Origin: an uncultured Caulobacterales bacterium
Lineage (GTDB): Bacteria; Pseudomonadota; Alphaproteobacteria; Caulobacterales; Caulobacteraceae
DNA length: 64,000 nucleotides
Reading direction: 5' to 3'
NCBI GenBank assembly: GCA_903858185.1
Contig: CAIOHT010000008.1
Location: 33,931-97,930 of the forward strand
Shown here: positions 19,472 to 30,848 of the stretch, one piece after another
How positions within the stretch are numbered: the stretch's first letter is position 1
Layout: every line of letters starts with the position of its first letter
Program-made: the position numbers and the translations under genes
The notes under the pieces: generated by a model
The model's database searches: none
Seen by the model: the letters and a program-made list of their open reading frames with translations, nothing else
Told to the model about the DNA's origin: nothing

Positions 19472-20080
19472 ATGACTGCCCCGACAAAATCTCCGCTGGC
19501 TGCAGAACCGGTCATCGATGGCCGCCGCCTGCGGTCGGAGATGAGCCGCCTGCGCATCGTCGAGGCGATGATCGCGCTGGTGTCGGAAGGCCTGACCATG
19601 CCGCCGGCCGAGGCCGTGGCCGCGCGGGCAGGCGTCGGCCTGCGCACCGTGTTCCGCCTGTTCGAGGACATGGACGGCCTTTACCGCGGCATGCAGGCGG
19701 TGATGACCGAACGGCTCGGCGGCCTGCTGGAAGGTCCGATCGAGGCCTCGGACTGGCATGAAGCCATCAACATCCTGATCGACCGGCGTGCGGAAGCTTT
19801 CGAGATGATGCTCCCGCTGCAGATGGCCGCCGACAGTGTTCGCACCCGCTCGGCGGCCCTTCGCGACGGGCGGCTCCGACTGGTCCGGGGCCAGCGCGAC
19901 ACCTTGCTGGCCGCTCTGCCCGCTGCGATCCAGGGCGATGCCGAGCTCGTCGAGGCGCTGAATCTGGCGCTGAGTTTCGAGGCCTGGCGTCGCCTGCGCA
20001 CCGACCAGGGCGCCGACATTGCCCGGGCTCGAGCAATCATGCGTCGTATTGCAACCGCGCTCGTCGGCGACACCGCGTGA
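19472..20080 (+). CDS. TetR family transcriptional regulator
   Basis: A 202-aa regulator with an N-terminal TetR helix-turn-helix (about residues 25-70: MSRLRIVEAMIALVSEG..AVAARAGVGLRTVFRLFEDMDGL) and a C-terminal helical ligand domain. It lies between the dehalogenase operon and the formylglycine-generating enzyme gene, overlapping the latter by four bases (GTGA). It is therefore co-transcribed with that gene and a candidate regulator of the sulfatase/dehalogenase locus, possibly through the dyad at 17629-17647. Ligand unknown. Confidence 0.85.
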   Translation: MTAPTKSPLAAEPVIDGRRLRSEMSRLRIVEAMIALVSEGLTMPPAEAVAARAGVGLRTVFRLFEDMDGLYRGMQAVMTERLGGLLEGPIEASDWHEAINILIDRRAEAFEMMLPLQMAADSVRTRSAALRDGRLRLVRGQRDTLLAALPAAIQGDAELVEALNLALSFEAWRRLRTDQGADIARARAIMRRIATALVGDTA

Positions 20081-21009
20081 AGCGCCTCCTGCTGGTTCTG
20101 GCCCTCGGCCTGGGCGGCTGCGGAGCGAAAACGCCGCAACTGGCCGCGCCGACGCGGGCCTGTCCGGGCGCCGCGCCGAGCGGCGAGGTCGCGCTCAAGG
20201 GCGGAACCTTCGTCCTCGGCGCCCGGCCTGAGCACGACGACGAGGGCCCGCCGCGCACCGTGACGGTCGGCCCCTTCTCGATCGACCGCACCGAGGTGAC
20301 CAACGCCCAGTTCGCCGCCTTCGTGGCGGCCACCGGCTATGTGACCCTGGCCGAACGCCGGCCGGATCCGAAGCTCTATCCCGGTGTCCCGGCGAGCAAG
20401 CTAAACCCGTCATCCCTGGTGTTCGTCGGGGCCGAGGGGCTGGGTTCGGGCGATCCGTCCGGCTGGTGGCGCATCGTCGACGGCGCCAGCTGGAAACATC
20501 CGGAGGGACCGGGCAGCACCATCGTCGGCCGCGAGCGCCATCCCGTGGTGCAGATCGCCTTCGACGACGCCCTGGCCTATGCCCGATGGAAGGGCCGTGA
20601 TCTGCCGACCGAGGCCGAATGGGAATTCGCCGCCCGGGCCGGGCTCGACGGCGCCCGTTATGAATGGGGCGACGACAAGCCCGCGCCCGGCAAGCCCCGC
20701 GCCAACAGCTGGCAGGGCGTGTTCCCGGCCGTCGACACCGGCGACGACGGCTACAAGGCCCGCACCGCGCCGGTCGGTTGCTATCCGACCAGCGCCTACG
20801 GGTTGTTCGACATGAGCGGCAACGTCTGGGAGTGGACCAGGGACTGGTACGAGGCCCCGTCCCCGAACGGGCGCAGCCACCTGATCAAGGGCGGCTCGTT
20901 CCTCTGCGCCGACAACTTCTGCTACCGCTACCGCCCGTCTGCGCGGCAGCCCGGGCCGCCGGATACCGGTTCGAGCCACGTCGGGTTCCGGACGGTGAAG
21001 CGGGGATAA
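20077..21009 (+). CDS. Formylglycine-generating enzyme (SUMF1/FGE family), lipoprotein form
   Basis: A 310-aa FGE-sulfatase domain protein. The active-site segment GGSFLCADNFCYRYRPSARQ holds the paired cysteines (277 and 282) of true copper-dependent formylglycine-generating enzymes. LPTEAEWEFAARAG, DMSGNVWEWTRDW and HVGFRTVK complete the family pattern. Its role would be to oxidise the Cys of the sulfatase CxPxR motif to formylglycine using O2. Unusually, it begins with a signal peptide and lipobox (LGGC, Cys at about residue 15), which puts it in the periplasm. The GTG start overlaps the TetR stop. The sulfatase at 14855 is the obvious client. Confidence 0.92.
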   Translation: MKRLLLVLALGLGGCGAKTPQLAAPTRACPGAAPSGEVALKGGTFVLGARPEHDDEGPPRTVTVGPFSIDRTEVTNAQFAAFVAATGYVTLAERRPDPKLYPGVPASKLNPSSLVFVGAEGLGSGDPSGWWRIVDGASWKHPEGPGSTIVGRERHPVVQIAFDDALAYARWKGRDLPTEAEWEFAARAGLDGARYEWGDDKPAPGKPRANSWQGVFPAVDTGDDGYKARTAPVGCYPTSAYGLFDMSGNVWEWTRDWYEAPSPNGRSHLIKGGSFLCADNFCYRYRPSARQPGPPDTGSSHVGFRTVKRG

Positions 21010-21040
21010 TCCTGCCCCTATCCCAAGCTCTCTTGGCATA

Positions 21041-21189
21041 CCCGCCCTGATGTCTTGACGGCCAGTGTTGCTCCGGCGGACGACCTGCTCAAGGACCGCT
21101 TCGCGGCCGCGCAGCGGCGACCCCGCAGGGGTCGTCCTTGACCAGGCCGACCGACCGGAGCGCATCATTCCATCAAGGCCAAAGGGCAA
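21041..21189 (+). repeat. 149-bp structured repeat, copy A
   Basis: The element runs from CCCGCCCTGATGTCTTGACGG to the ATTCCATCAAGGCC segment and beyond. The inner core (about 21088-21144, TCAAGGACCGCTTCGCGGCC...GGGGTCGTCCTTGA) is almost identical to the inverted copy at 30191-30339. The outer stem (GCTCCGG...CCGGAGC, 21070-21161) has a different sequence in the two copies but pairs in both. It fills the space between the FGE gene and the TauD-type gene. Confidence 0.9.
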
Positions 21190-21272
21190 TTGTCATCTGG
21201 CCCGAGGGGAGGATCGTTGCGCTGGGGATCGCCGCACGCGATCATGCGTCCAACGAGAAGGGGAGCTCTCAC

Positions 21273-22109
21273 ATGAGCGGGATCACGGTCCACCAGGTCG
21301 CCGGCGCGCTCGGCGCGGAGATATCGGGCGTCGATCTGTCCGGCCCGCTGTCCGACGAAACCATCGCCGACATCCGCGACGCCTTCACCCGGCACCAGGT
21401 GATCTTCTTCCGCGACCAGACCCTGACGCCGCAGCAGCAGCTGGCGTTCGGGCGCCGCTTCGGCCCCTTGAACATCCACCCCTACGTTGCCGGCATGGAC
21501 GACCATCCCGAGGTGATGGAGATCATCAAGGAGCCGACCGACCGGATCAATTTCGGCGGCGGCTGGCACTCGGACATGAGCTTCCTGGAGACGCCCGCGA
21601 TCGGCTCGATCCTCTATGCCGTGGAAGTGCCCGACTTCGGCGGCGACACCCTGTTCGCCAGCCAGGCGGCGGCGTTCGAGGCGCTGTCGCCGGGCCTGCA
21701 GAAGACGCTGGAGGGCCTCAACGCCATCCATTCCGCCGAGCGGGAGTATGCCCCCACCGGCGCCTCGGCCCAGAAGCGCGAGTCGATGAAGATCAGCGAC
21801 GCCGAAGGCATGGCCGGCCGCTTCGCCCATCCGATGGTCAAGGTCCACCCGGAGACCGGCCGCAAGGCGCTGTATGTCAATCCGGCCTTCACGATGAACA
21901 TCGAGGGCTGGAGCCGGCGCGAGTCGAAGCCGCTGCTGGACTACCTTTTCGAGCACAGCCGCAAGGAGGCCTTCACCTGCCGCTTCAGCTGGCGGCCGGG
22001 CTCGATCGCCTTCTGGGACAACCGCTCGGTCTGGCACTACGCGCTGAACGACTACCACGGCCAGCGCCGGCACATGCGCCGGGTGACGGTGGATCCGGTG
22101 GGGGGTTAG
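21273..22109 (+). CDS. TauD/TfdA-type 2-oxoglutarate-dependent dioxygenase
   Basis: A 278-aa Fe(II)/2-oxoglutarate enzyme. The HxD iron motif is in GGGWHSDMSF, the distal His in NRSVWHYALNDY and the oxoglutarate-binding Arg in HMRRVTVD. IFFRDQTLTPQQQLAFGRRFG is a typical family N-terminus. Members include taurine and alkylsulfate dioxygenases (TauD, AtsK) that release sulfite or sulfate, and TfdA. Its place beside the sulfatase locus makes a sulfur-related substrate attractive but unproven. ATG 21273 follows GGGAG; the frame upstream runs into the repeat. Its stop overlaps the convergent hydrolase stop. Confidence 0.88.
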   Translation: MSGITVHQVAGALGAEISGVDLSGPLSDETIADIRDAFTRHQVIFFRDQTLTPQQQLAFGRRFGPLNIHPYVAGMDDHPEVMEIIKEPTDRINFGGGWHSDMSFLETPAIGSILYAVEVPDFGGDTLFASQAAAFEALSPGLQKTLEGLNAIHSAEREYAPTGASAQKRESMKISDAEGMAGRFAHPMVKVHPETGRKALYVNPAFTMNIEGWSRRESKPLLDYLFEHSRKEAFTCRFSWRPGSIAFWDNRSVWHYALNDYHGQRRHMRRVTVDPVGG

Positions 22110-23800
22110 ACCACCTGCGTCGCCGTCCCCGCCACCACGTACCAGGTGACGAACAGGCCGCAGATCACCGCGCCGGGGACGTAGCTGCCGGTCCTCCGCC
22201 AGGTGAAGGTCGAGATCAGGGCGACGATGGCCATCAGCGGCAGGAACTGGATCGCCACCACCGTGCTCAGCGGGTCGAAGTCGGTCGGCAGACGGCCGGT
22301 GGCGAAGAACAGGCCGTAGTCGACGACAAGCAGCAGCAGGAAGCCCAGCGACATCGCCGCGATGGACGTGGCGTAGGTCTTCACCGGGCCGTCGCCAAGC
22401 ACCGGCAGCCGTCCGTGTAGCGCCCGCGTCGCGACGAGGAAGAAGGCCGTCAGCGGCAGGACATAGACCAGCGCGATCTTGAACTGCGACAGGCCGAACA
22501 GCTTGAGCGCCACCACCCAGAAGCGGAAGTCGACCTTGAACAGGGCGTCCATGGCGACGAGCGACAGGTAGCCGACCGCGACAGTGGCGACGGCGATCCC
22601 GACGGCCGGGACCCAGCGGTTGTCGAACGTCGCCATCGCCCGCTTGCGCCCGAACCAGCCGATGACGAGGGTCAGGGCCGCGTTGACCAGGGCCCAGACC
22701 ACCACCTGGTTGGTGATGCTCTGCGGCAGCAGCGCCGAGGGCTTGAGCAGCACCGTCACGGCGATGAAGGCCGGAAAGAAGGTCAGGACGGGCAGGAGGG
22801 CGGTGGTCGCGAGGCCGGCCCACCAGCGGCCGGTTCGCCATTGCACGGCCGCCTCCGGCTCGTGCCGCAAGGCCGCGAACACCGGGAGGCCCAGCAGGCC
22901 GTTGAAGGCGCCGAGCAGCAGCACCACAAACCCGATGAAGGCCACGCCGGTGGCGATCTCCTTCCAGATCCAGATCTGGTCGGCGGCCGGGCGGGGCGTG
23001 CCGCCCGTGAGGGTTTTGGCGAACCAGTCGGTCGCGTCGCCGACGGCGGCGGTCGAGATGTGGTCGCCGGGATGTGTGGTGACGGGCTGGGTCAGCCGCC
23101 GGGCGGTCCCGCCGGCGAGGTCGCCATAGACCCGGCCTGGAACGACGTCGGCCGTCGTACCGAACACCGTCTTCAGCTTCGGCGACGAGGCGACGTCCTG
23201 CGCCCGCTTCACGCCCCACATGATCGTGCTGAACTCGTCGTATTTGCTGAACACCAGCGCCATGTTGCGCGGCCAGACGGGCGTGCCCTCGGCGGCGAAC
23301 GGCGCGCCTGTCGAGGAGCCTTCCAGCACCACGGCCTTGTAGGCGTCCGGCATGGTCGCGGCCGCGGCCAATACGGTCCAGCCGCCCATGCTGTGCCCTT
23401 CAAGACCGATGTTGGCCTTGTCGACCGTCGGCAGGCTGCGCAGGTATTTCAGCCCGTCCGGCCCGCCGAAGCCGTTTGAGAAGGCCGCCCCGCCGCTGTA
23501 GCCGTGGCCGGTCTGGTCCATCGCCAGCACGACATAGCCGCGCCGGGCGAACTCGATGGCGAAGGCGCTCTGGGTCTCGCGGCTGTTGATGTAGCCGTGG
23601 ACGGCCAGGATGCCGGGCGCGGGGGTGGCGGCGGTGGCGGTCTTCGGCGTGTAGAGCAGACCGCTCATGGTCACGCCGCCGGTTCCCTTGAACCGCACGT
23701 CCGTGACGGTGATCCCGCCGGACGTCTGGACGGCGCTCGCCCACCATGACCCGGCCAGGACCAGCACCAGTCCGGCCAGAAACAGCCCCCATCTGCGCAT
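22106..23800 (-). CDS. Exported alpha/beta hydrolase fused to a multi-helix membrane domain
   Basis: A 564-aa protein. After a signal or anchor helix (residues 5-22), residues 35-270 form an alpha/beta hydrolase with AVHGY, nucleophile GHSMGGW, and HPGDH as the likely catalytic His. Residues 280-560 then give about eight hydrophobic helices. The hydrolase part should face the periplasm. ATG 23800 is chosen because GGGGAGA precedes it and the signal sequence starts there. The substrate is unknown; relatives are annotated as dienelactone hydrolase-like. Its end overlaps the dioxygenase gene by four bases. Confidence 0.82.
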   Translation of the reverse strand: MRRWGLFLAGLVLVLAGSWWASAVQTSGGITVTDVRFKGTGGVTMSGLLYTPKTATAATPAPGILAVHGYINSRETQSAFAIEFARRGYVVLAMDQTGHGYSGGAAFSNGFGGPDGLKYLRSLPTVDKANIGLEGHSMGGWTVLAAAATMPDAYKAVVLEGSSTGAPFAAEGTPVWPRNMALVFSKYDEFSTIMWGVKRAQDVASSPKLKTVFGTTADVVPGRVYGDLAGGTARRLTQPVTTHPGDHISTAAVGDATDWFAKTLTGGTPRPAADQIWIWKEIATGVAFIGFVVLLLGAFNGLLGLPVFAALRHEPEAAVQWRTGRWWAGLATTALLPVLTFFPAFIAVTVLLKPSALLPQSITNQVVVWALVNAALTLVIGWFGRKRAMATFDNRWVPAVGIAVATVAVGYLSLVAMDALFKVDFRFWVVALKLFGLSQFKIALVYVLPLTAFFLVATRALHGRLPVLGDGPVKTYATSIAAMSLGFLLLLVVDYGLFFATGRLPTDFDPLSTVVAIQFLPLMAIVALISTFTWRRTGSYVPGAVICGLFVTWYVVAGTATQVV

Positions 23801-23865
23801 CGTCGTCTCCCCCCGTCGAAGCAGGGAAACTGTATAGGCCCAATCCGGCATGCACGCGAAACCGC

Positions 23866-24570
23866 TCAGTGCGCGCCGGCTGGCTCCGGGATCAGCGGCC
23901 GGATTGCGTCGGCCCACAGCCGGTAGCCGCGTCCGGCCAGGTGGCGGCCATCAAATGTCAGATCCTGCGGCAGGAGCAGGTCCGGGGCGATCACCCGGTT
24001 CAGGTCCACATAGGTGCAGGCGCCCGTCTCGCAGAGCCGGCGGTTCAGCGCATTGAGCGCGGTGATCCGTTCGTTCAGCTTCGGCTGCCGGGTGTAGAGC
24101 ACCGACTGCAGATAGACTTGGCGGCCCTTGAGCTTGCCGACCGTCTGCGCGGTCCAGCCGGCCACCTTGGCCGGGGGGACCTGGAACGTGCGCAGGTCGT
24201 TCAGGCCGATCATCAGGAAGACCCGCTCCGCCGACGCCGGCGTCGAGGCCTCGATGCGGCCAAGGAGACCAAGCGCCGTATCGCTGCCAATCCCCCGGTT
24301 GGCCACGGAGGGACCCAGCCATTCGTTCCAGTTGCCGTTGGCGGTCAGGGAATCGCCGATCATGATGGTTGTAGGTCGGGACTTAAGCTCTCGAAACTGG
24401 CTGACCCGGCTGCGAAAGTGCTGCGACCGCATGGTATCAGGCACGCGTTCCCGGCGCAGCGCCTCGGCCTCCTGCCTGGCCTTGAACCCGGGGATGGCGC
24501 GACCGGCGCCGAAACTGATGGCCATCAGCCCGATGACCCCGATCAGCATAAGCCAGCGCGCCAAGCTCAT
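23866..24570 (-). CDS. SGNH/GDSL-family hydrolase, membrane-anchored
   Basis: A 234-aa esterase-type protein with an N-terminal anchor helix (residues 4-22). It has block I GDSLTANGNW (nucleophile Ser), GIGSDTALG, block III GLNDL, and block V DGRHLAGRGY with the catalytic Asp/His. It begins six bases after the acyltransferase gene, forming an operon. A deacylase or acyl-transfer partner in surface polysaccharide modification is the likely role. It acts in the periplasm. Confidence 0.87.
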   Translation of the reverse strand: MSLARWLMLIGVIGLMAISFGAGRAIPGFKARQEAEALRRERVPDTMRSQHFRSRVSQFRELKSRPTTIMIGDSLTANGNWNEWLGPSVANRGIGSDTALGLLGRIEASTPASAERVFLMIGLNDLRTFQVPPAKVAGWTAQTVGKLKGRQVYLQSVLYTRQPKLNERITALNALNRRLCETGACTYVDLNRVIAPDLLLPQDLTFDGRHLAGRGYRLWADAIRPLIPEPAGAH

Positions 24571-24576
24571 CTCCTC

Positions 24577-26451
24577 CTACTCCGCCAGGGCGCTGAATAC
24601 GCCGCGCTGACGCAAGGCAGCCGCGATGTAGCGCGACCCCTCGCCCGTCATATGTGCCCCGTCGTATTGGATCGGCGCACCGTTCGAAGTCGTCTTGCAG
24701 GTCTTTGCATCGCAAAGGGCGTTGACGACCGAATAGTAGGGGATGCCGGTCTCCGCGGCCTTGGCGGCCATCAACGCATCAACCTGGCGCGGGCCCGGCT
24801 TGCGATGACGGTCGAGGATTGATGGGTCCTGCCGTTTCGCAGCAAGGTTCAGGAGGCGCGGCGCCTCCTGGTCATACTGCACCAGCGGGCCGACCCAGAT
24901 GACCTTCATTCCCATGGCGCGGATGCGTTGCGCCGCCCTGGCGACCGGTTCGACGTCATCGGCCTTCCAATTGCCCATCAGCACAACAGCGTCGACGGGG
25001 CGTCCGGGCAGGAAGTCCTCATAGACCCGCTTCGTCAGCTCATCGCAGCGGTCGTAGGTCGGACCGGTCTGGACTGGGAGCGGTTTGCAGCTCGCCGCCG
25101 TGGCCTGGAGGAAATGATACTCGGGGAAGACCTCGTGCAGGCCGAGCCAGAGGTTGGCGGCGTGGCTGTCTCCGATGATCAGGATGTTCGGTCGATCCCC
25201 GGCGGGCGTCAGGCACGCGGCGTCGTCGAGGCGCGAATCCTTGCGCTTCCACAGCAGGCAGATCCCGCGGCGTTGATTGATGTCGGCGTTGTAGCTCGCG
25301 TACCTCGCGTACGGACCGGCCTGGTTCGGCAGCACGTCGGGCAGGCCCTTGGTGGCGAACAGAACGGTGGCCAGCGCGGCAATGGCCAGAGCGGCGACAC
25401 CGAGAATCGTCATCACCTTGCGCGTCGGCATCCGCTTGCCGCGAAACGGCTGTTCGACGAAGCGCCACGTCAGCCAGCTGGCTATGACCGACAGGCCGAT
25501 CACGACGATGCCGGCGCCGATCTTCGAGTCATAGGGGAAGAAGGTCCAGCCCATCCGCTGGAAGGTCAGGATCGGCCAGTGCCACAGATAGAGCGAGTAG
25601 GAGATCAGCCCGAGGGCGACCATCGGCTTGAGCGACAGCAGTCGGCTGGCGAGGTTGGGGCCCGATGCGCCGGCATGGATCAGGGCCGCCGCGCCGAGAC
25701 AGGGCGCAAGCGCGCCGATCCCGGGGAAGGGCGTCAGGCCGTTGATCAGCAGGATCGAGCCCGCGACCAGCGCGAGGCCGGCGAGTCCGAGCGCTTCGCG
25801 CCCGAGCCGCGATGTGACCTTCGGCACGGCGCCGATCGCCAGCAGTGACCCGGTCAGCAGTTCCCAGGCCCGGCTTGGCAGCAGATAGAAGCCCGCCGTC
25901 GAGTCGTTGAGGGCCCCGTAGGTGCTGATCGCCAGCGAGACGGCGAACAGGCCCCAGAACACCAGGGCGAGGGAGGCTTTCCGGCGCGCCAGGAAGACCA
26001 CCAGCAGCGGGAAGACCAGGTAGAACTGCTCCTCGACCCCCAGCGACCAAGTGTGCAGCAGGGGCTGAGCGTCTGCCCCACGACCGAAATAGTCGAGGGC
26101 GAAGGTGAAGTAGATGTTCGAGATCGAAGCCAGGGCATAGAGCGTCGTTTTGCCGAGGTTCTCACGGTCTGACGGTGCCAGCGCGAAGATCGACAGAACG
26201 AGGAACGTCGCCAGTACCAGCAGCAGCGCGGGCGCGATGCGCCGCACCCGCCGCTCGTAGAAGCCGGCGATCGAGAAGGTCCCGGCAGCCTGCTCCTGGA
26301 CGATCAGGCTGGTGATCAGAAAGCCGGAAATGACGAAGAAGATGTCGACCCCGACAAAGCCGCCGGTGCTGATGCCGATATGAAAGAGCACGACCGGGAT
26401 GACGGCGACGGCGCGCAGGCCATCGACATCGGAACGATACGTCAAGGACAT
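24577..26451 (-). CDS. OafA/YrhL-type acyltransferase with C-terminal SGNH domain
   Basis: A 624-aa protein. Acyltransferase-3 membrane domain with ten or so helices (YRSDVDGLRAVAVIPVVLFHIG, GFVGVDIFFVISGFLI, RRVRRIAPALL, HTWSLGVEEQFYLVFPLL), then a periplasmic SGNH domain (IIGDSHAANLWLG; final DGAHMTGEGS). Such enzymes O-acetylate lipopolysaccharide or other cell-surface glycans. The start is ATG 26451, where the family pattern begins; the open frame upstream to 26853 is antisense to the GST gene. Paralogous to the protein at 41713-43569. Confidence 0.92.
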   Translation of the reverse strand: MSLTYRSDVDGLRAVAVIPVVLFHIGISTGGFVGVDIFFVISGFLITSLIVQEQAAGTFSIAGFYERRVRRIAPALLLVLATFLVLSIFALAPSDRENLGKTTLYALASISNIYFTFALDYFGRGADAQPLLHTWSLGVEEQFYLVFPLLVVFLARRKASLALVFWGLFAVSLAISTYGALNDSTAGFYLLPSRAWELLTGSLLAIGAVPKVTSRLGREALGLAGLALVAGSILLINGLTPFPGIGALAPCLGAAALIHAGASGPNLASRLLSLKPMVALGLISYSLYLWHWPILTFQRMGWTFFPYDSKIGAGIVVIGLSVIASWLTWRFVEQPFRGKRMPTRKVMTILGVAALAIAALATVLFATKGLPDVLPNQAGPYARYASYNADINQRRGICLLWKRKDSRLDDAACLTPAGDRPNILIIGDSHAANLWLGLHEVFPEYHFLQATAASCKPLPVQTGPTYDRCDELTKRVYEDFLPGRPVDAVVLMGNWKADDVEPVARAAQRIRAMGMKVIWVGPLVQYDQEAPRLLNLAAKRQDPSILDRHRKPGPRQVDALMAAKAAETGIPYYSVVNALCDAKTCKTTSNGAPIQYDGAHMTGEGSRYIAAALRQRGVFSALAE

Positions 26452-26502
26452 TCCCAACCCCGGCCGCCGCACGCCCGTGAGGAAGTGCTCTTCCCGTGCG
26501 AC

Positions 26503-26515
26503 TATACGGTATAAT
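26503..26515 (+). promoter_or_regulatory. Promoter-like TATAAT overlapping the dyad TATAC-G-GTATA
   Basis: In the 108-base divergent space between the acyltransferase and the GST, TATACGGTATA (26503-26513) is a perfect dyad that overlaps a -10-like TATAAT (26510-26515), 45 bases ahead of the GST start. No good -35 is visible, which fits an activated or repressed promoter. Confidence 0.35.
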
Positions 26516-26559
26516 CCCGGGCTGACAGCCCCGGCGCCGGGGCATCCCGGGGGGCGATC

Positions 26560-27225
26560 ATGATCATACTGTTCCACTGCCACGACGCCCGTTCGTTCCG
26601 ACCGCTCTGGGCGCTGGAGGAACTCGAACTTCCCTATGACCTGCGGATGTTGCCGTTTCCGCCGAGGTTCCTGAAGAAGGAATACCTGCAGGAAAATCCG
26701 CTGGGTACGATCCCGCTGCTGGTGGACGGCGAGACGCGGATGACCGAGTCGGCGGCCATCGTGGAGTATCTGTCGCGGCGCTACGGCAAGCCGGGCGGCC
26801 TGGCCGTCGAGCCCGATGAACCCGGGTTCGGCGCCTGGCTCAACGCCCTGCATTTCGGCGAGGCGACCCTGACGTTCCCGCAGACCCTGGTGCTGCGCTA
26901 CACGCGGCTAGAGCCGGAGGCCCGCCGGCAGCCGCAGGTTGCCGACGACTATGCCAAATGGTTTCTCGCCCGGCTGCGCGGGCTTGACGCGATCGTCAGC
27001 CAGGCGGAGTTCGTCGCCGCGGGCCGGTTCACGGGCGGTGACATCTCGGTCGCCTATGCCCTCCTGCTGGCCCGGTCGCTCGGACTGGCCGACCGCTTCC
27101 CGCCGGCGGTCGCCGACTACTGGGCGCGGATGCAGGACCGGCCCGGCTTCAAGCGCGCGAAGGCGTCGCAATCGGCGGCGTCGGTCGCGCAGGGGCTGAC
27201 CGCCGTGCCGGTCGATCAGCTATAG
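26560..27225 (+). CDS. Glutathione S-transferase family protein
   Basis: A 221-aa protein with an N-terminal thioredoxin-fold GST domain (LFHCHDARSFRPLWALEELELPYDLR; NPLGTIPLLVDGETRMTESAAIVEYLSRRYG, the cis-Pro and glutathione-binding Glu-Ser region) and an alpha-helical C-terminal domain. The enzyme would conjugate or reduce electrophiles with glutathione. It is followed 11 bases later by the nucleoside hydrolase gene, which may share its transcript. Substrate unknown. Confidence 0.88.
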   Translation: MIILFHCHDARSFRPLWALEELELPYDLRMLPFPPRFLKKEYLQENPLGTIPLLVDGETRMTESAAIVEYLSRRYGKPGGLAVEPDEPGFGAWLNALHFGEATLTFPQTLVLRYTRLEPEARRQPQVADDYAKWFLARLRGLDAIVSQAEFVAAGRFTGGDISVAYALLLARSLGLADRFPPAVADYWARMQDRPGFKRAKASQSAASVAQGLTAVPVDQL

Positions 27226-27236
27226 ACGTCCGCAGC

Positions 27237-28175
27237 ATGAGCGCGCGCCCCCTGATCATCGACTGCGACCCTGGCGTCGACGACGCCGTCGCCCTGTTGC
27301 TGGCCTTCGGCGCGCCTGAGGCGCTCGATATCCTGGCGATCACGACGGTGGCCGGAAATGTCGCCGCCGACCTGACCGCCCGCAACGCGCGGCTGATCCG
27401 CCAGATCGCCGCCCGTGAGGACGTGCCCGTCCATGTCGGCGCATCCGCCCCGCTGGTCCGGCCGCCGATCATCGCCAGCCATTTTCATGGCGAGTCAGGG
27501 CTCGGGACGATGGCCGTGTTCGAGCCGACCGCGCCTGTGGCGGAAGGAGACGCCGCCCGGGCGATCATCGACATCGTGATGAACCGCCCTGTCGGCTCGG
27601 TCTCGATGGCGGTTACCGGTCCGATGACCAACCTAGCGCTGGCGATCCAGCGGGAACCGGCTCTGGCCGCGCGACTGGGGCCGGTCGTTGTGATGGGCGG
27701 CGCCCGCCGTGAGGGCGGCAACATCACCGCCTCGGCCGAATACAACATCTATGCCGACCCGGATGCGGCGGACGTCGTGTTCCGCTCGGGGGCAAAGACC
27801 GTCGTCCTGGGCCTCGACGCGACCCACCAGGTTCGGGCGACCCCGGACCGGGTCGCGGCGGTCAAGGCGATCGACACCCCGGCGGCAAAGGCCGTCGCGC
27901 AACTTTTCGACTTCGCGGTCTGGACCGAACAGACCCATGTCGGCGGCGACAGCCCGCCGCAGCACGACCCCTGTACGATCCTCTATCTGCTGGCGCCGCA
28001 GCACTTCACCGCCGTGCCCGTGGACCTGCAGGTCGAAACGCAGTCGGCCCTGACCATGGGCCACACCGCCGTCGAGTTCCGCCTCGCCGACGCCGCGACC
28101 GCAACCTGCCAGTGGGTGACGGAGGTCGATCATGAGGCGGTGTTCGCCCTGATGCTGGAGATCTTCGCCCGATGA
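27237..28175 (+). CDS. Inosine-uridine-type nucleoside hydrolase
   Basis: A 312-aa N-ribohydrolase. LIIDCDPGVDDAVALLLA is the calcium-binding Asp cluster of the IU-NH family, with TTVAGNV, TGPMTNLALAI, VVMGGA and SAEYNIYADPDAA also in order. It cleaves nucleosides to free base and ribose. The stop overlaps the ribokinase start (ATGA), so released ribose would be phosphorylated by its partner. No signal peptide is present, so it acts in the cytoplasm. Whether it prefers uridine or purines cannot be told; a Rut uracil-degradation cluster lies 2 kb downstream. Confidence 0.92.
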   Translation: MSARPLIIDCDPGVDDAVALLLAFGAPEALDILAITTVAGNVAADLTARNARLIRQIAAREDVPVHVGASAPLVRPPIIASHFHGESGLGTMAVFEPTAPVAEGDAARAIIDIVMNRPVGSVSMAVTGPMTNLALAIQREPALAARLGPVVVMGGARREGGNITASAEYNIYADPDAADVVFRSGAKTVVLGLDATHQVRATPDRVAAVKAIDTPAAKAVAQLFDFAVWTEQTHVGGDSPPQHDPCTILYLLAPQHFTAVPVDLQVETQSALTMGHTAVEFRLADAATATCQWVTEVDHEAVFALMLEIFAR

Positions 28176-29026
28176 CCGCGCCGCTGATCACCGTTGTGGG
28201 GTCGGTAAACCTCGACTTCGTCGCCACGGCGAAAACCCTGCCCGCGCCCGGCGAGACGGTCACGGGCGCGACCCTGGCCCGCTATCCCGGTGGAAAGGGC
28301 GCCAACCAGGCGCTGGCCGCGCGGCGACTGGGCGCGGACGTGCGGATGATTGCCCGCGTCGGTGCTGACGCGATGGCCGATGAGGCGCTCGCCCTGCTGA
28401 AGGCCGAGGGCGTCGATCTGTCCGGCGTCGCGGTCGATCCTACGGCTTCGACCGGCGCGGCCCTGATCGCTGTGGACGCAGAGGCCGAGAACCAGATCGT
28501 CGTGGCCTCCGGGGCCAACGCCGCCTTCCTGCCCGAGCACCTGCCGGCGGCGATCGACGGCGCGCTGATCTGCCAGATGGAGCTGCCGGCGGAGACAGTC
28601 GCCGCCGCCGTGGCCCGGGCGTCCGGGTTCGTGTGCGTCAACCTGGCCCCGGCGCTCGACGTGCCCGACAGCGTGCTGCAGCGGGCCGATCTGATCATCG
28701 TCAACGAAGGCGAGGCCGAGGTCTACGGCAAGCGCCTGCATGGGCTGAAGGGCCTGGTCGCGATCACCTGGGGCTCGCGCGGCGCGGGCCTGTTCCGCGA
28801 TGGCGCGCGGGTCGCCACCGCCGAGCCGCCGGAGGTGGATGCCGTCGACACGACCGGCGCGGGGGATGCGTTCGTTGCCGCCCTGACCGTGGCCATGCTG
28901 GAAGGCCAGACGCCCGAGCGGGCGCTGGCCTTCGCCTGCGCCGTCGGAGCGCTGACGGCGACGAGGGCGGGCGCGCAACCCTCCTTGCCGACCAGAGCCG
29001 CGGTGGAGGCGCGGTTGCGCGGCTGA
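28172..29026 (+). CDS. rbsK: Ribokinase (PfkB family)
   Basis: A 284-aa PfkB sugar kinase. VVGSVNLDFVATAKTLPAPGET, YPGGKGANQALAARRLGA (sugar site) and DTTGAGDAFVAAL (anion hole and catalytic Asp) are the ribokinase signatures. It converts ribose to ribose 5-phosphate with ATP. Four-base overlap with the nucleoside hydrolase supports a two-step salvage unit. A hairpin at 29031-29057 follows the stop. Other PfkB substrates such as deoxyribose cannot be excluded. Confidence 0.9.
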   Translation: MTAPLITVVGSVNLDFVATAKTLPAPGETVTGATLARYPGGKGANQALAARRLGADVRMIARVGADAMADEALALLKAEGVDLSGVAVDPTASTGAALIAVDAEAENQIVVASGANAAFLPEHLPAAIDGALICQMELPAETVAAAVARASGFVCVNLAPALDVPDSVLQRADLIIVNEGEAEVYGKRLHGLKGLVAITWGSRGAGLFRDGARVATAEPPEVDAVDTTGAGDAFVAALTVAMLEGQTPERALAFACAVGALTATRAGAQPSLPTRAAVEARLRG

Positions 29027-29030
29027 GTCC

Positions 29031-29057
29031 GGGGACAAGCACTGGAGTGAATGTCCC
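29031..29057 (+). terminator. Possible hairpin after ribokinase
   Basis: GGGGACA ... TGTCCC pair across a 14-base loop, followed by TGTTTG, four bases after the ribokinase stop. It also looks like a degenerate half of the palindrome at 10013-10089, so it may be a repeat remnant used as a terminator. Confidence 0.4.
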
Positions 29058-29095
29058 TGTTTGAGGCCCCCGCCAGTTGGGTCTAGCCTGTCCCC

Positions 29096-30019
29096 ATGAC
29101 CCGATCCGTTCCCGAACTGAGCCTCAGGGCCTTCACCGAGGGCGACGCCGCCCAGCGCGGGGCCTTCTCCGACGCGATGATGCGCGGCCTGCAGGACTAC
29201 GGCTTCTTCGTCCTTAAGGATCACGGCGTGCCGCTGGAGTTGTTGCAGCGCGCCTACGCCGAGGCGGAGGGGCTGTTCGCCCTGCCGGAGGCGACCAAGC
29301 GCCAGTACGCGAAGGGCATGCGCGGCTATACGCCGTTCGGCGTCGAGCACGCCAAGGACAGCGGCCATCCGGACCTGAAGGAGTTCTGGCAGGTCGGCCA
29401 TGATCCGTCGGCGGAGGCCGGCGACGGCGTCGAGCCCAATGTCTGGCCGGCCGAGGCCCCCGGCGTGCAGGCGGTGTTCCAGAGCCTGTTCGGCGCCCTG
29501 AACGACACCGGCATCACCCTGCTGCGCGCCCTGGCGCCGAAGCTGGGTCTGGCGAGTGACTTCTTTGACGACAAGGTGCGCTACGGCACGTCGCTGCTGC
29601 GCGTGCTGCACTACCCGCCGCTCGCGGCCGATGCCAACCCGAACGCGGTGCGCTCGGCGGCGCATGAGGACATCAACTTCCTGACCATCATGGTCGCCGC
29701 CAAGGGCGCGGGGCTGGAGCTGCTCGACCGCGACGGGACCTGGCTGCCGGTGGTCACCGAACCGACCAACCTGATCGTCGACAGCGGCGACATGCTGGCC
29801 CGGATGACCAACGGCGTTATCCCGGCCACGACCCACCGGGTGGTCAACCCGACAGGGCCGAACGTGAGCCGCTACTCGATGCCGTTCTTCATGCACCCGA
29901 CGCTGGAGACCTCGCTGGCCGTGCTGGAGAGCTGCGTCGGCGACGGTTCGAAGTTCGAGCCGGTGACGGCGGGGGCGTTCCTGGACGAACGGCTCAGGGC
30001 GATCGGGTTGAAATCCTGA
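29096..30019 (+). CDS. Isopenicillin N synthase-like Fe(II)/2-oxoglutarate oxygenase
   Basis: A 307-aa IPNS/DIOX family protein. A DIOX_N domain (residues 5-120, LQDYGFFVLKDHGVP) is followed by the double-stranded beta helix with AAHEDINFLTI (His-x-Asp), TTHRVVNP (second His) and RYSMPFF (RxS oxoglutarate-binding motif). Bacterial members hydroxylate or desaturate diverse small molecules; a beta-lactam role is not implied. A palindromic repeat begins two bases after its stop. No neighbour defines its substrate. Confidence 0.88.
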   Translation: MTRSVPELSLRAFTEGDAAQRGAFSDAMMRGLQDYGFFVLKDHGVPLELLQRAYAEAEGLFALPEATKRQYAKGMRGYTPFGVEHAKDSGHPDLKEFWQVGHDPSAEAGDGVEPNVWPAEAPGVQAVFQSLFGALNDTGITLLRALAPKLGLASDFFDDKVRYGTSLLRVLHYPPLAADANPNAVRSAAHEDINFLTIMVAAKGAGLELLDRDGTWLPVVTEPTNLIVDSGDMLARMTNGVIPATTHRVVNPTGPNVSRYSMPFFMHPTLETSLAVLESCVGDGSKFEPVTAGAFLDERLRAIGLKS

Positions 30020-30020
30020 A

Positions 30021-30171
30021 CCCCTCCTCCTCGATGGAGGAGGGGCAGGGGTGGAGGTGTGGCCAACTCAGTTGGGTAATGGGCTCTGTTTGGCGCGGAG
30101 CCTCTCGCGCGCTGCCGGAAACACCCAGCCCCCACCACCATCCCCGGCCCTTCCTCCATCGAGGAGGAAGG
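30021..30171. repeat. Inverted repeat with CTCCTCGATGGAGGA arms
   Basis: The arms at about 30021-30062 and 30125-30171 are near reverse complements (CCCCTCCTCCTCGATGGAGG.. and ..CCTCCATCGAGGAGGAAGGG), and each is itself a hairpin. Together with structured repeat copy B it fills the 301-base space between the oxygenase stop and the kinase stop; no gene is seen there. Confidence 0.85.
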
Positions 30172-30190
30172 GAGAAGAAATGATGCTGCC

Positions 30191-30339
30191 TTGCCCTGAA
30201 GGCCTTGATGGAATTGGAGCTCTGCCAGGGGTCTTGGTCAAGGACGGCCCCTGCGGGGCCGCCGCGCCGCGGCCGCGAAGCGGTCCTTGAGCAAGACCCC
30301 TGGCAGAGCAAAGCTGGCCGTCAAGACATCAGGGGCGGT
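30191..30339 (-). repeat. 149-bp structured repeat, copy B (inverted relative to copy A)
   Basis: Reverse complement of copy A at 21041-21189. The outer stem 30219-30309 (GCTCTGCCAGGGGTCTTG / CAAGACCCCTGGCAGAGC) is perfect over 18 pairs and unlike the stem sequence in copy A. The core (TCAAGGACGGCCCCTGCGGG...CGCGAAGCGGTCCTTGA) matches. The conserved flank CCGCCCCTGATGTCTTGACGG overlaps the 3' end of the kinase gene and supplies its stop codon. Confidence 0.9.
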
Positions 30340-30848
30340 GCGCCTGCGGCGCTGTTCGATGCAGTTATCGCTGCGATGGCACGTTCCAGTGCGGCTTGGT
30401 CGCGGACGACATGGCAGTCGTCTCGAACCGCTAAAGCGCTGAGGATGCCGGGCCTTACGTTGATCGGGAACCTCCAGATGATCTTGATGAGCCTGGGAAT
30501 GATCAGGATTTCAGGACAGTTCTCCGGCAGGCCGGGTCGGCTGCGAAACAGATACTTCCAGTTCCGCCCGGCGCATCGAACGAAGGACGTCGCCCGGGAT
30601 ACATCGAGGAAAATCACATAGTCCGCTGCATCGAGGACGGTTCGCGAGACGCCGTCGATAACCCAGTGGGGCCGGGCGACCAGGTCGGCTTCGCAATCCC
30701 TGCGCCAGTCCGCGGGGCTCTTTCGCCAGCCGGGTCGCCAGACGATCTGGTCGAGGCCGTAGACCGGCAGGCCCAGGCTGCGCCCGAGCGTCGCGGCCAG
30801 GGTGGACTTTCCGCTCCCGGCGTTTCCGGTGATGAAGATCCGGGTCAT
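30321..30848 (-). CDS. P-loop kinase, topology-modulation/adenylate kinase-like
   Basis: A 175-aa protein with Walker A GNAGSGKSTLAATLGRSLG at residues 8-15 onwards, then LPVYGLDQIVWRPGW and WVIDGVSRTVLDAADYVIFLD. This is the pattern of small FlaR/topology-modulation-type ATP-binding proteins and nucleotide-kinase relatives. The true substrate is unknown. It starts ten bases after rutA and could be the last gene of that operon. Its last codons and TGA lie inside repeat copy B, so the C-terminus may have been replaced or trimmed by that element. Confidence 0.8.
   Translation of the reverse strand: MTRIFITGNAGSGKSTLAATLGRSLGLPVYGLDQIVWRPGWRKSPADWRRDCEADLVARPHWVIDGVSRTVLDAADYVIFLDVSRATSFVRCAGRNWKYLFRSRPGLPENCPEILIIPRLIKIIWRFPINVRPGILSALAVRDDCHVVRDQAALERAIAAITASNSAAGAPPLMS

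Follow-up and report, generated by a model that had tools for sequence, protein, structure and literature searches.

REP and BIME palindromes are hairpins that lie behind genes and occur with RAYT (Y1 tyrosine) transposases, and REP hairpins can shield messages from 3' exonucleases or end transcription. The inverted terminal repeat of adeno-associated virus (AAV) has a stem with a branched tip in flip and flop orientations, and the attC sites of integrons have the end consensus RYYYAAC / GTTRRRY. In Caulobacter, the CcrM-associated intergenic repeats (CIR; Chen and Shapiro 2003) are described in PMC2229807 as sequences of about 110 bp with two linker-joined arms and a conserved GANTC at a loop. 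The CIR are also covered in PMC10969869, and PMC1273637 cites the CIR work among alpha-proteobacterial repeats. According to PMC2229807 and PMC10969869, bacterial miniature inverted-repeat transposable elements (MITEs) and the small mobile repeats ERIC, NEMIS and RUP are presumed to move in trans. Here we describe a branched palindromic repeat of which two copies lie in a 64,000-nt stretch of DNA from an uncultured Caulobacterales bacterium (the whole stretch is referred to as the window). It appears to constitute a new family of palindromic repeats, dispersed in Caulobacter and near relatives, that behaves like a non-autonomous mobile element.

An initial annotation of the window had noted two elements in opposite orientation, and the sequence confirms both of them at their places. 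When the ends were set by conservation among 33 copies found by sequence, the unit was 160-166 bp long (about 163 bp) instead of the 149 bp first given, extending from about 11 bases 5' of CCTGATG to about 20 bases 3' of ATTCCATCAAGG. Each copy is one long end-to-end hairpin. A short 5' hairpin-like end (GGCAGACC.GCC) forms the outermost part and is followed by an imperfect outer stem (GTCTTGACGG/CCATCAAGGC), an asymmetric internal loop of conserved sequences (CCAGTNTT / GCATCATT) and a variable middle stem of 18-19 positions. Next comes a single position that is C.C, paired or G.G, and then the 8-bp inner fixed arms TCAAGGAC/GTCCTTGA, which enclose a tip of small hairpins. Among 87 distinct tips, three such hairpins (stem of at least 4 bp, 3-base loop) were found in 29, two in 48, one in 9 and none in 1. 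The triloops were GNA on either strand in 139 of 192 cases (98 GNA and 41 TNC), with the middle base of GNA free to vary; in DNA, GNA triloops with a C-G closing pair are unusually stable.

Both window copies folded far beyond their dinucleotide shuffles, which bears out the long helix first noted in each. The fold of copy 1 reached -87.4 kcal/mol against a shuffle mean of -59.4 (z -6.2), and that of copy 2 -98.6 kcal/mol against -61.4 (z -8.4); in neither case was any of 200 shuffles as good. The 18 consecutive pairs reported for the second copy are present as an 18-bp exact arm (GCTCTGCCAGGGGTCTTG), and the single mismatch at the same place is a C.C beside TCAAGGAC in both copies. The description of the two middle stems as unrelated did not survive comparison with other copies: the stems are equal in length and have a common start, GCTC(C/T)G, and a common end, C(C/T)TG, and intermediates occur elsewhere, so that the two window stems represent two subfamilies of one stem. 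Perfect arm pairs over positions 2-18 came in 15 distinct versions that differed in sequence, 13 of them starting with GCTCTG. Copy 2 is of this perfect-arm kind, and copy 1 is of the GCTCCGGCGG kind, with a few lasting mismatches. Other genomes of the genus hold a related subfamily (L252, L253, L254 and L109-L111; L numbers denote element loci) with the same inner core and a different outer stem, CTTACATCTC / GAGATGTAAGG, and a locus in another genus of the same family (L255) has the same architecture with the core GTCAAGGA...TCCTTGAC.

The copies were then counted in the genome that holds the window (G000), in its sister genome (G024) and in relatives (other G numbers), with 75 genomes in the genus set. 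A blastn search of copy 2 against its own genome listed full copies together with their echoes on the opposite strand and fragments that were short and weak; after reading and orienting, 13 copies were counted in G000. A 14th place (L073, G000:C132:86185) holds a shortened copy without the tip, so that deletion derivatives exist in G000. A covariance model (CM) was built from 26 sequence-found copies. Together, 20 sequence-found copies and 8 places found by the CM gave at least 28 copies in G024. The initial annotation had suggested such a search of related genomes, and it showed the family to be dispersed, with matches in at least 47 of the 75 genomes (E<=0.001) and, at the order level, in at least 33 genomes, 20 of which have weak R1 matches outside the genus; these counts are lower bounds, with up to 38 candidates scored per genome in the genus search and up to 9 in the order search. 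Since a palindrome matches on both strands, listed CM matches are not equal to copy numbers. The elements are non-coding. In the window the CM found no third full copy; its other matches there were two weak ones, of 17.7 and 13.3 bits. The order-level matches L038 and L041 were apparent chance matches to the fixed core and were rejected, as were Bacillota and RUG10619 records that contain the 20-mer and have no CM match. A blastn search with copy 1 of plasmid and phage collections found no match, and viral contigs held no exact match to the outer motif; carriage on known plasmids or phages was accordingly rejected. A literature search found no recognisable description of the family, which is weak evidence of novelty with most subscription journals outside its reach.

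We tested covariation with the 26 sequence-found copies that have the tip in orientation A, leaving out the 7 of 33 with an inverted tip. In this set 97.4% of cells were paired, and two-sided changes occurred in 12 of 46 pairs, with 50 cells against 15.2 in shuffles. Shuffles reached values as high in 0 of 500 cases for four of five measures and in 1 of 500 for the fifth, and when the registers were slid the paired share dropped to 23-49%. Together with the folds of both copies, this covariation rules out a chance palindrome. A wider stem set comprised 102 elements, or 103 minus the artefact L106, and both anchors were present in 101. In these 101 elements, 1375 of 1919 ungapped stem positions were Watson-Crick, compared with 967 (standard deviation 20) when the right arms were redealt in 2000 shuffles; this test is partly circular, because the copies beyond the 33 sequence-found ones came from a model that rewards pairing. 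In the stems, G.T and A.C stood at 30:10 in cells but at 14:8 in distinct contexts (p 0.29). L106, at the end of G017:C50, had been a candidate for the overwriting of one arm by the other and was rejected as a contig-end foldback, its right flank being a noisy reverse complement of the left. This assembly artefact, in which the end of the contig turns back on itself through the palindrome, mimics a perfect arm copy.

Orthologous loci, identified by comparison of flanks, were aligned in 12 groups, within which 16 comparisons that share sequences covered 944 structure pairs, with 9 more set aside for gaps. Of these pairs, 820 were the same. One-sided changes left 67 pairs unpaired, turned 18 into G.U and kept 8 as Watson-Crick, and two-sided changes left 19 paired and 12 unpaired, with tip inversions adding to both classes. 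Pair-breaking one-sided changes (67) were thus commoner than pair-keeping two-sided ones (19). At the same time, by our own arithmetic from the per-side rate, about 6 two-sided changes of any kind would be expected where 19 paired ones were found in 944. The initial annotation had taken compensatory change to imply selection on structure; across the family the covariation agrees with that, and strictly in place the excess of breaks does not. Stem differences that do not pair, which it had named as evidence against its reading, were found in part, as unpaired states among orthologues.

The copy 2 locus illustrates these changes. With one mismatch allowed, the copy 2 stem pattern matched in 8 of the 75 genomes; both arms matched in five of the eight (G000, G024, G065, G069 and G084, at one place each), and the matches in G044 and G055 were unrelated. 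Both flanks of the locus are common to G024, G065, G069, G078 and G084. One pair in the stem is T-A in G000, G-C in G024, G.G in G065, A.C in G069 and G.A in G084, and is therefore unpaired in three of the five species that have the copy 2 stem here. The G.A of G084, with the right A as in G000 and the left G kept, is intermediate between G-C and T-A. G024 and G084 have one additional mismatch each, G078 has a stem of the other kind here, and G075 has a remnant without the tip and right arm.

The orientation of the tip relative to the outer sequences was clear in 83 elements, of which 64 had A and 19 the reverse (15 as B forward and 4 as A reverse); besides these, 4 elements had an unclear tip and 15 were without clear orientation. 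Among the copy 2 orthologues, G065, G084 and G078 have tip A, as does G000 itself, and G024 and G069 have tip B. In G069, the tip when reverse-complemented equals that of G000 copy 2 apart from a single difference. Because the adjoining C.C is unturned in G069, the ends of the inversion fall inside the 8-bp arms there, and because the adjoining position is G.G in G024, the turned piece was longer there.

We also analyzed where the copies sit, and found them mostly 3' of stop codons. According to a simple codon-usage gene finder trained on the window, 78 oriented copies with orthologues collapsed fell into 27 convergent, 25 tandem sense, 7 tandem antisense, 4 divergent and 15 unclassified sites; the orthologue pairs O3 and O8, whose members share a gap, are oppositely oriented and may have inserted separately, were counted as two each. 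Gene pairs in the window, called by the same gene finder, were 10 convergent, 41 tandem and 11 divergent. At tandem sites the bias toward the sense of the upstream gene was 25 to 7 (p 0.002). From the left-hand stop codon, the element lay a median of 27 bp away at sense-tandem sites and 41 bp at convergent ones.

Occupancy of the sites varied. G000 and G069 carry the element at the L014 site, where the converging stop codons abut in G072, G076 and G078, a short gap occurs in G077, and other short palindromes are found in G075 and G084. The copy 1 site is empty of the element in G024, G069, G072, G076, G077 and G078. G065 has a copy 1 orthologue beside the same right flank, cut by the contig end, and in G075 the copy 1 flanks lie far apart. 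The gap that holds copy 1 contains differing sequences in other species, and at the orthologous site in G024 (L075, G024:C50) there is a different palindrome, GGGGACAGCTTACCTATTTC...GAAATAGGTAAGCTGTCCCC, with a REP-like look. Table 1 gives the coordinates of both window copies and of the neighbouring genes.

Table 1. Parts of the two window copies and adjacent genes (positions in the window)
Feature	Position	Strand	Remarks
Copy 1, whole element	21034..21197	+	CM match 192.8 bits; conservation span of 33 copies; subfamily stem GCTCCGGCGG...; tip orientation A
Copy 1 outer stem, left arm GTCTTGACGG	21052..21061	+	Fold and alignment
Copy 1 middle (variable) stem, left arm	21070..21087	+	Fold and alignment
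Copy 1 inner fixed arm TCAAGGAC	21089..21096	+	One C of the C.C mismatch is at 21088
Copy 1 tip, small hairpins	21097..21133	+	
Copy 1 inner fixed arm GTCCTTGA	21134..21141	+	
Copy 1 middle stem, right arm	21143..21161	+	
Copy 1 outer stem, right arm CCATCAAGGC	21170..21179	+	
Copy 2, whole element	30183..30345	-	CM match 158.1 bits; subfamily stem GCTCTGCCAGGGGTCTTG; tip orientation A
Copy 2 middle stem, left arm GCTCTGCCAGGGGTCTTG	30292..30309	-	18-bp exact arm
Copy 2 inner fixed arm TCAAGGAC	30283..30290	-	One C of the C.C mismatch is at 30291
Copy 2 tip	30246..30282	-	Orthologous tips inverted in G069 and G024
Copy 2 inner fixed arm GTCCTTGA	30238..30245	-	
Copy 2 middle stem, right arm	30219..30236	-	
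FGE-sulfatase domain protein gene, upstream of copy 1	20077..21009	+	Stop about 25 bp short of the element
TauD-family dioxygenase gene, downstream of copy 1	21273..22109	+	Start taken as ATG at 21273, picked by eye
2OG-Fe(II) oxygenase gene, converging on copy 2 from below	29096..30019	+	
Open reading frame (ORF) converging on copy 2 from above	30321..30848	-	Weak AAA_18 match, under the curated cut-off

The stop codon of the ORF that converges on copy 2 from above (30321-30323) is within copy 2. A second repeat adjoins copy 2 at 30021-30172; its arms, 31 nt long and 90 nt apart, contain CCTCCATCGAGGAGG hairpins, and stretches that resemble it flank the copies L008, L063 and L069.

The observations to be explained are many copies with one fold, covariation, variable occupancy, preferred placement and orientation, and tip inversion between orthologues. 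We consider it somewhat probable that the repeat is a non-autonomous palindromic element kept foldable by selection on spreading copies and by arm-templated replication or repair, and among the options of the initial annotation, which included a non-autonomous element and new palindromes made by a copying mechanism, these fit the evidence best. An enzyme supplied in trans may recognise the folded strand or a cruciform during spread. If the folded form is what is recognised, founder copies would be selected for foldability. The arms would then drift in place and occasionally be re-matched, one arm templating the other, perhaps by template switching at the fork or by repair within the hairpin, and this may also be how the tip is inverted between the inverted 8-bp arms; the host would not need to use the element at all. 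According to PMC8604942, template switching at inverted repeats has two outcomes, arm homogenisation and spacer inversion, and according to PMC8794818, hairpins can be created and maintained by template switching.

A role of the repeat as an RNA used by the host, also among the first suggestions, is possible though rather unlikely. A hairpin at the 3' end of an mRNA would end transcription or block 3' exonucleases, and only its pairing would matter. Such a role suits the placement just 3' of stop codons with 25 sense to 7 antisense tandem copies, the strong family covariation, the long stable fold and the conserved asymmetric internal loop that separates the outer from the middle stem, and it stays in play because of the orientation bias. 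It is harder to reconcile with orthologues that lose pairs freely, with copy 1 being absent at its site in six relatives though present in G065, and with the L014 site, where three relatives have neither the element nor a gap between the converging stops. The 14:8 ratio of G.T to A.C contexts also fails to favour RNA. A scan around the two window copies found no intrinsic terminator (a G+C-rich stem followed by a T-run) at either, and Rfam 15 gave no hit at gathering scores over the window and none at E<=1 for 20950-21300, which covers copy 1 only. That mutation alone accounts for the fold, with template switching keeping any long palindrome matched and no selection on the fold at any stage, seems improbable: the tip inversion at one locus (copy 2) and the two-sided paired changes above independence (19 of 944) agree with it, but one-sided breaks build up in place, and both the fixed sequences TCAAGGAC and CCATCAAGG and the GNA triloops with a free middle base point to selection on the folded form.

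We think it unlikely, too, that the repeat is a classical MITE, that is, the remains of an internally deleted insertion sequence (IS) moved by the transposase of that IS via terminal inverted repeats. The size, the intergenic place and the varying occupancy are those of a MITE, and imperfect inverted termini (GCCCTGATGTCTTGACGG / GCCCTGAAGGCCTTGATGG) are present, with no matching IS to define the true ends. Against this, 98 copies revealed no target duplication, structure and covariation reach inside the element beyond its ends, and the half-match L073 is a copy with a deletion, next to an ORF judged by eye to be that of a transporter and not of a transposase. We hold with considerable doubt another reading, in which spread takes place through a single strand folded into a branched hairpin that an unlisted enzyme recognises, its tip turned and its arms re-matched in each copying cycle, flip-flop like viral terminal hairpins. 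If true, such a self-correcting palindrome would add a new mode to the mobile elements of bacterial chromosomes.

Several results weigh against a non-autonomous element that is re-matched by arm templating. No target-site duplication rose above shuffles in the 98 copies, although duplications of 3 bp or less would escape detection. The Y1 transposase (PF01797, E<=1e-5) was found in 22 of the 75 genomes and in neither G000 nor G069; PF01797 was the only family searched across genomes, and no partner transposase lay beside L073, the only half-match examined. No single-step exact overwrite of an arm was caught, the sole candidate being the artefact L106, and the G.A intermediate in G084 fits ordinary stepwise compensation as well. 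The orientation bias toward the upstream gene could reflect an RNA role. The empty sites could be losses.

Covariation is commonly taken to indicate functional RNA, and here a strongly covarying family loses pairs freely in place. The pair loss and the tip inversion between close species fit palindrome rewriting as much as selection, and the family is a caution for RNA discovery by covariation. With 13 copies in G000, at least 28 in G024 and orthologues of some of them in several species, it is a natural set for measuring rates of re-matching and tip inversion.

Among known systems, the CIR are the nearest described Caulobacter repeats to the present family: both occur in Caulobacter, are intergenic, multi-copy and self-complementary, lack a coding frame and are about 100 bp long or more. 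The present repeat, at 160-166 bp, is a single end-to-end hairpin, and GANTC is not conserved in it (4 of 33 copies have one, where base composition predicts 16.4 sites); identity with the CIR, judged from their descriptions and not their sequences, was rejected on architecture and GANTC. An integron attC site was rejected as well, since 0 of 33 copies had the consensus ends. A REP/RAYT system was rejected on the lack of a PF01797 match in G000 and G069, both rich in copies, and the present repeat is in addition longer than REP and BIME palindromes and branched. ERIC, NEMIS and RUP resemble it in size, end-to-end stem and intergenic place; it differs from them in having neither a target duplication nor an IS match and in its branched tip that occurs in both orientations. 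The likeness to the AAV inverted terminal repeat is a resemblance only; the present element lies in a cellular chromosome, is not terminal and has no replication protein. The repeat is ordinary in kind, and unusual in the amount of re-matching and tip turning that can be read from its orthologues.

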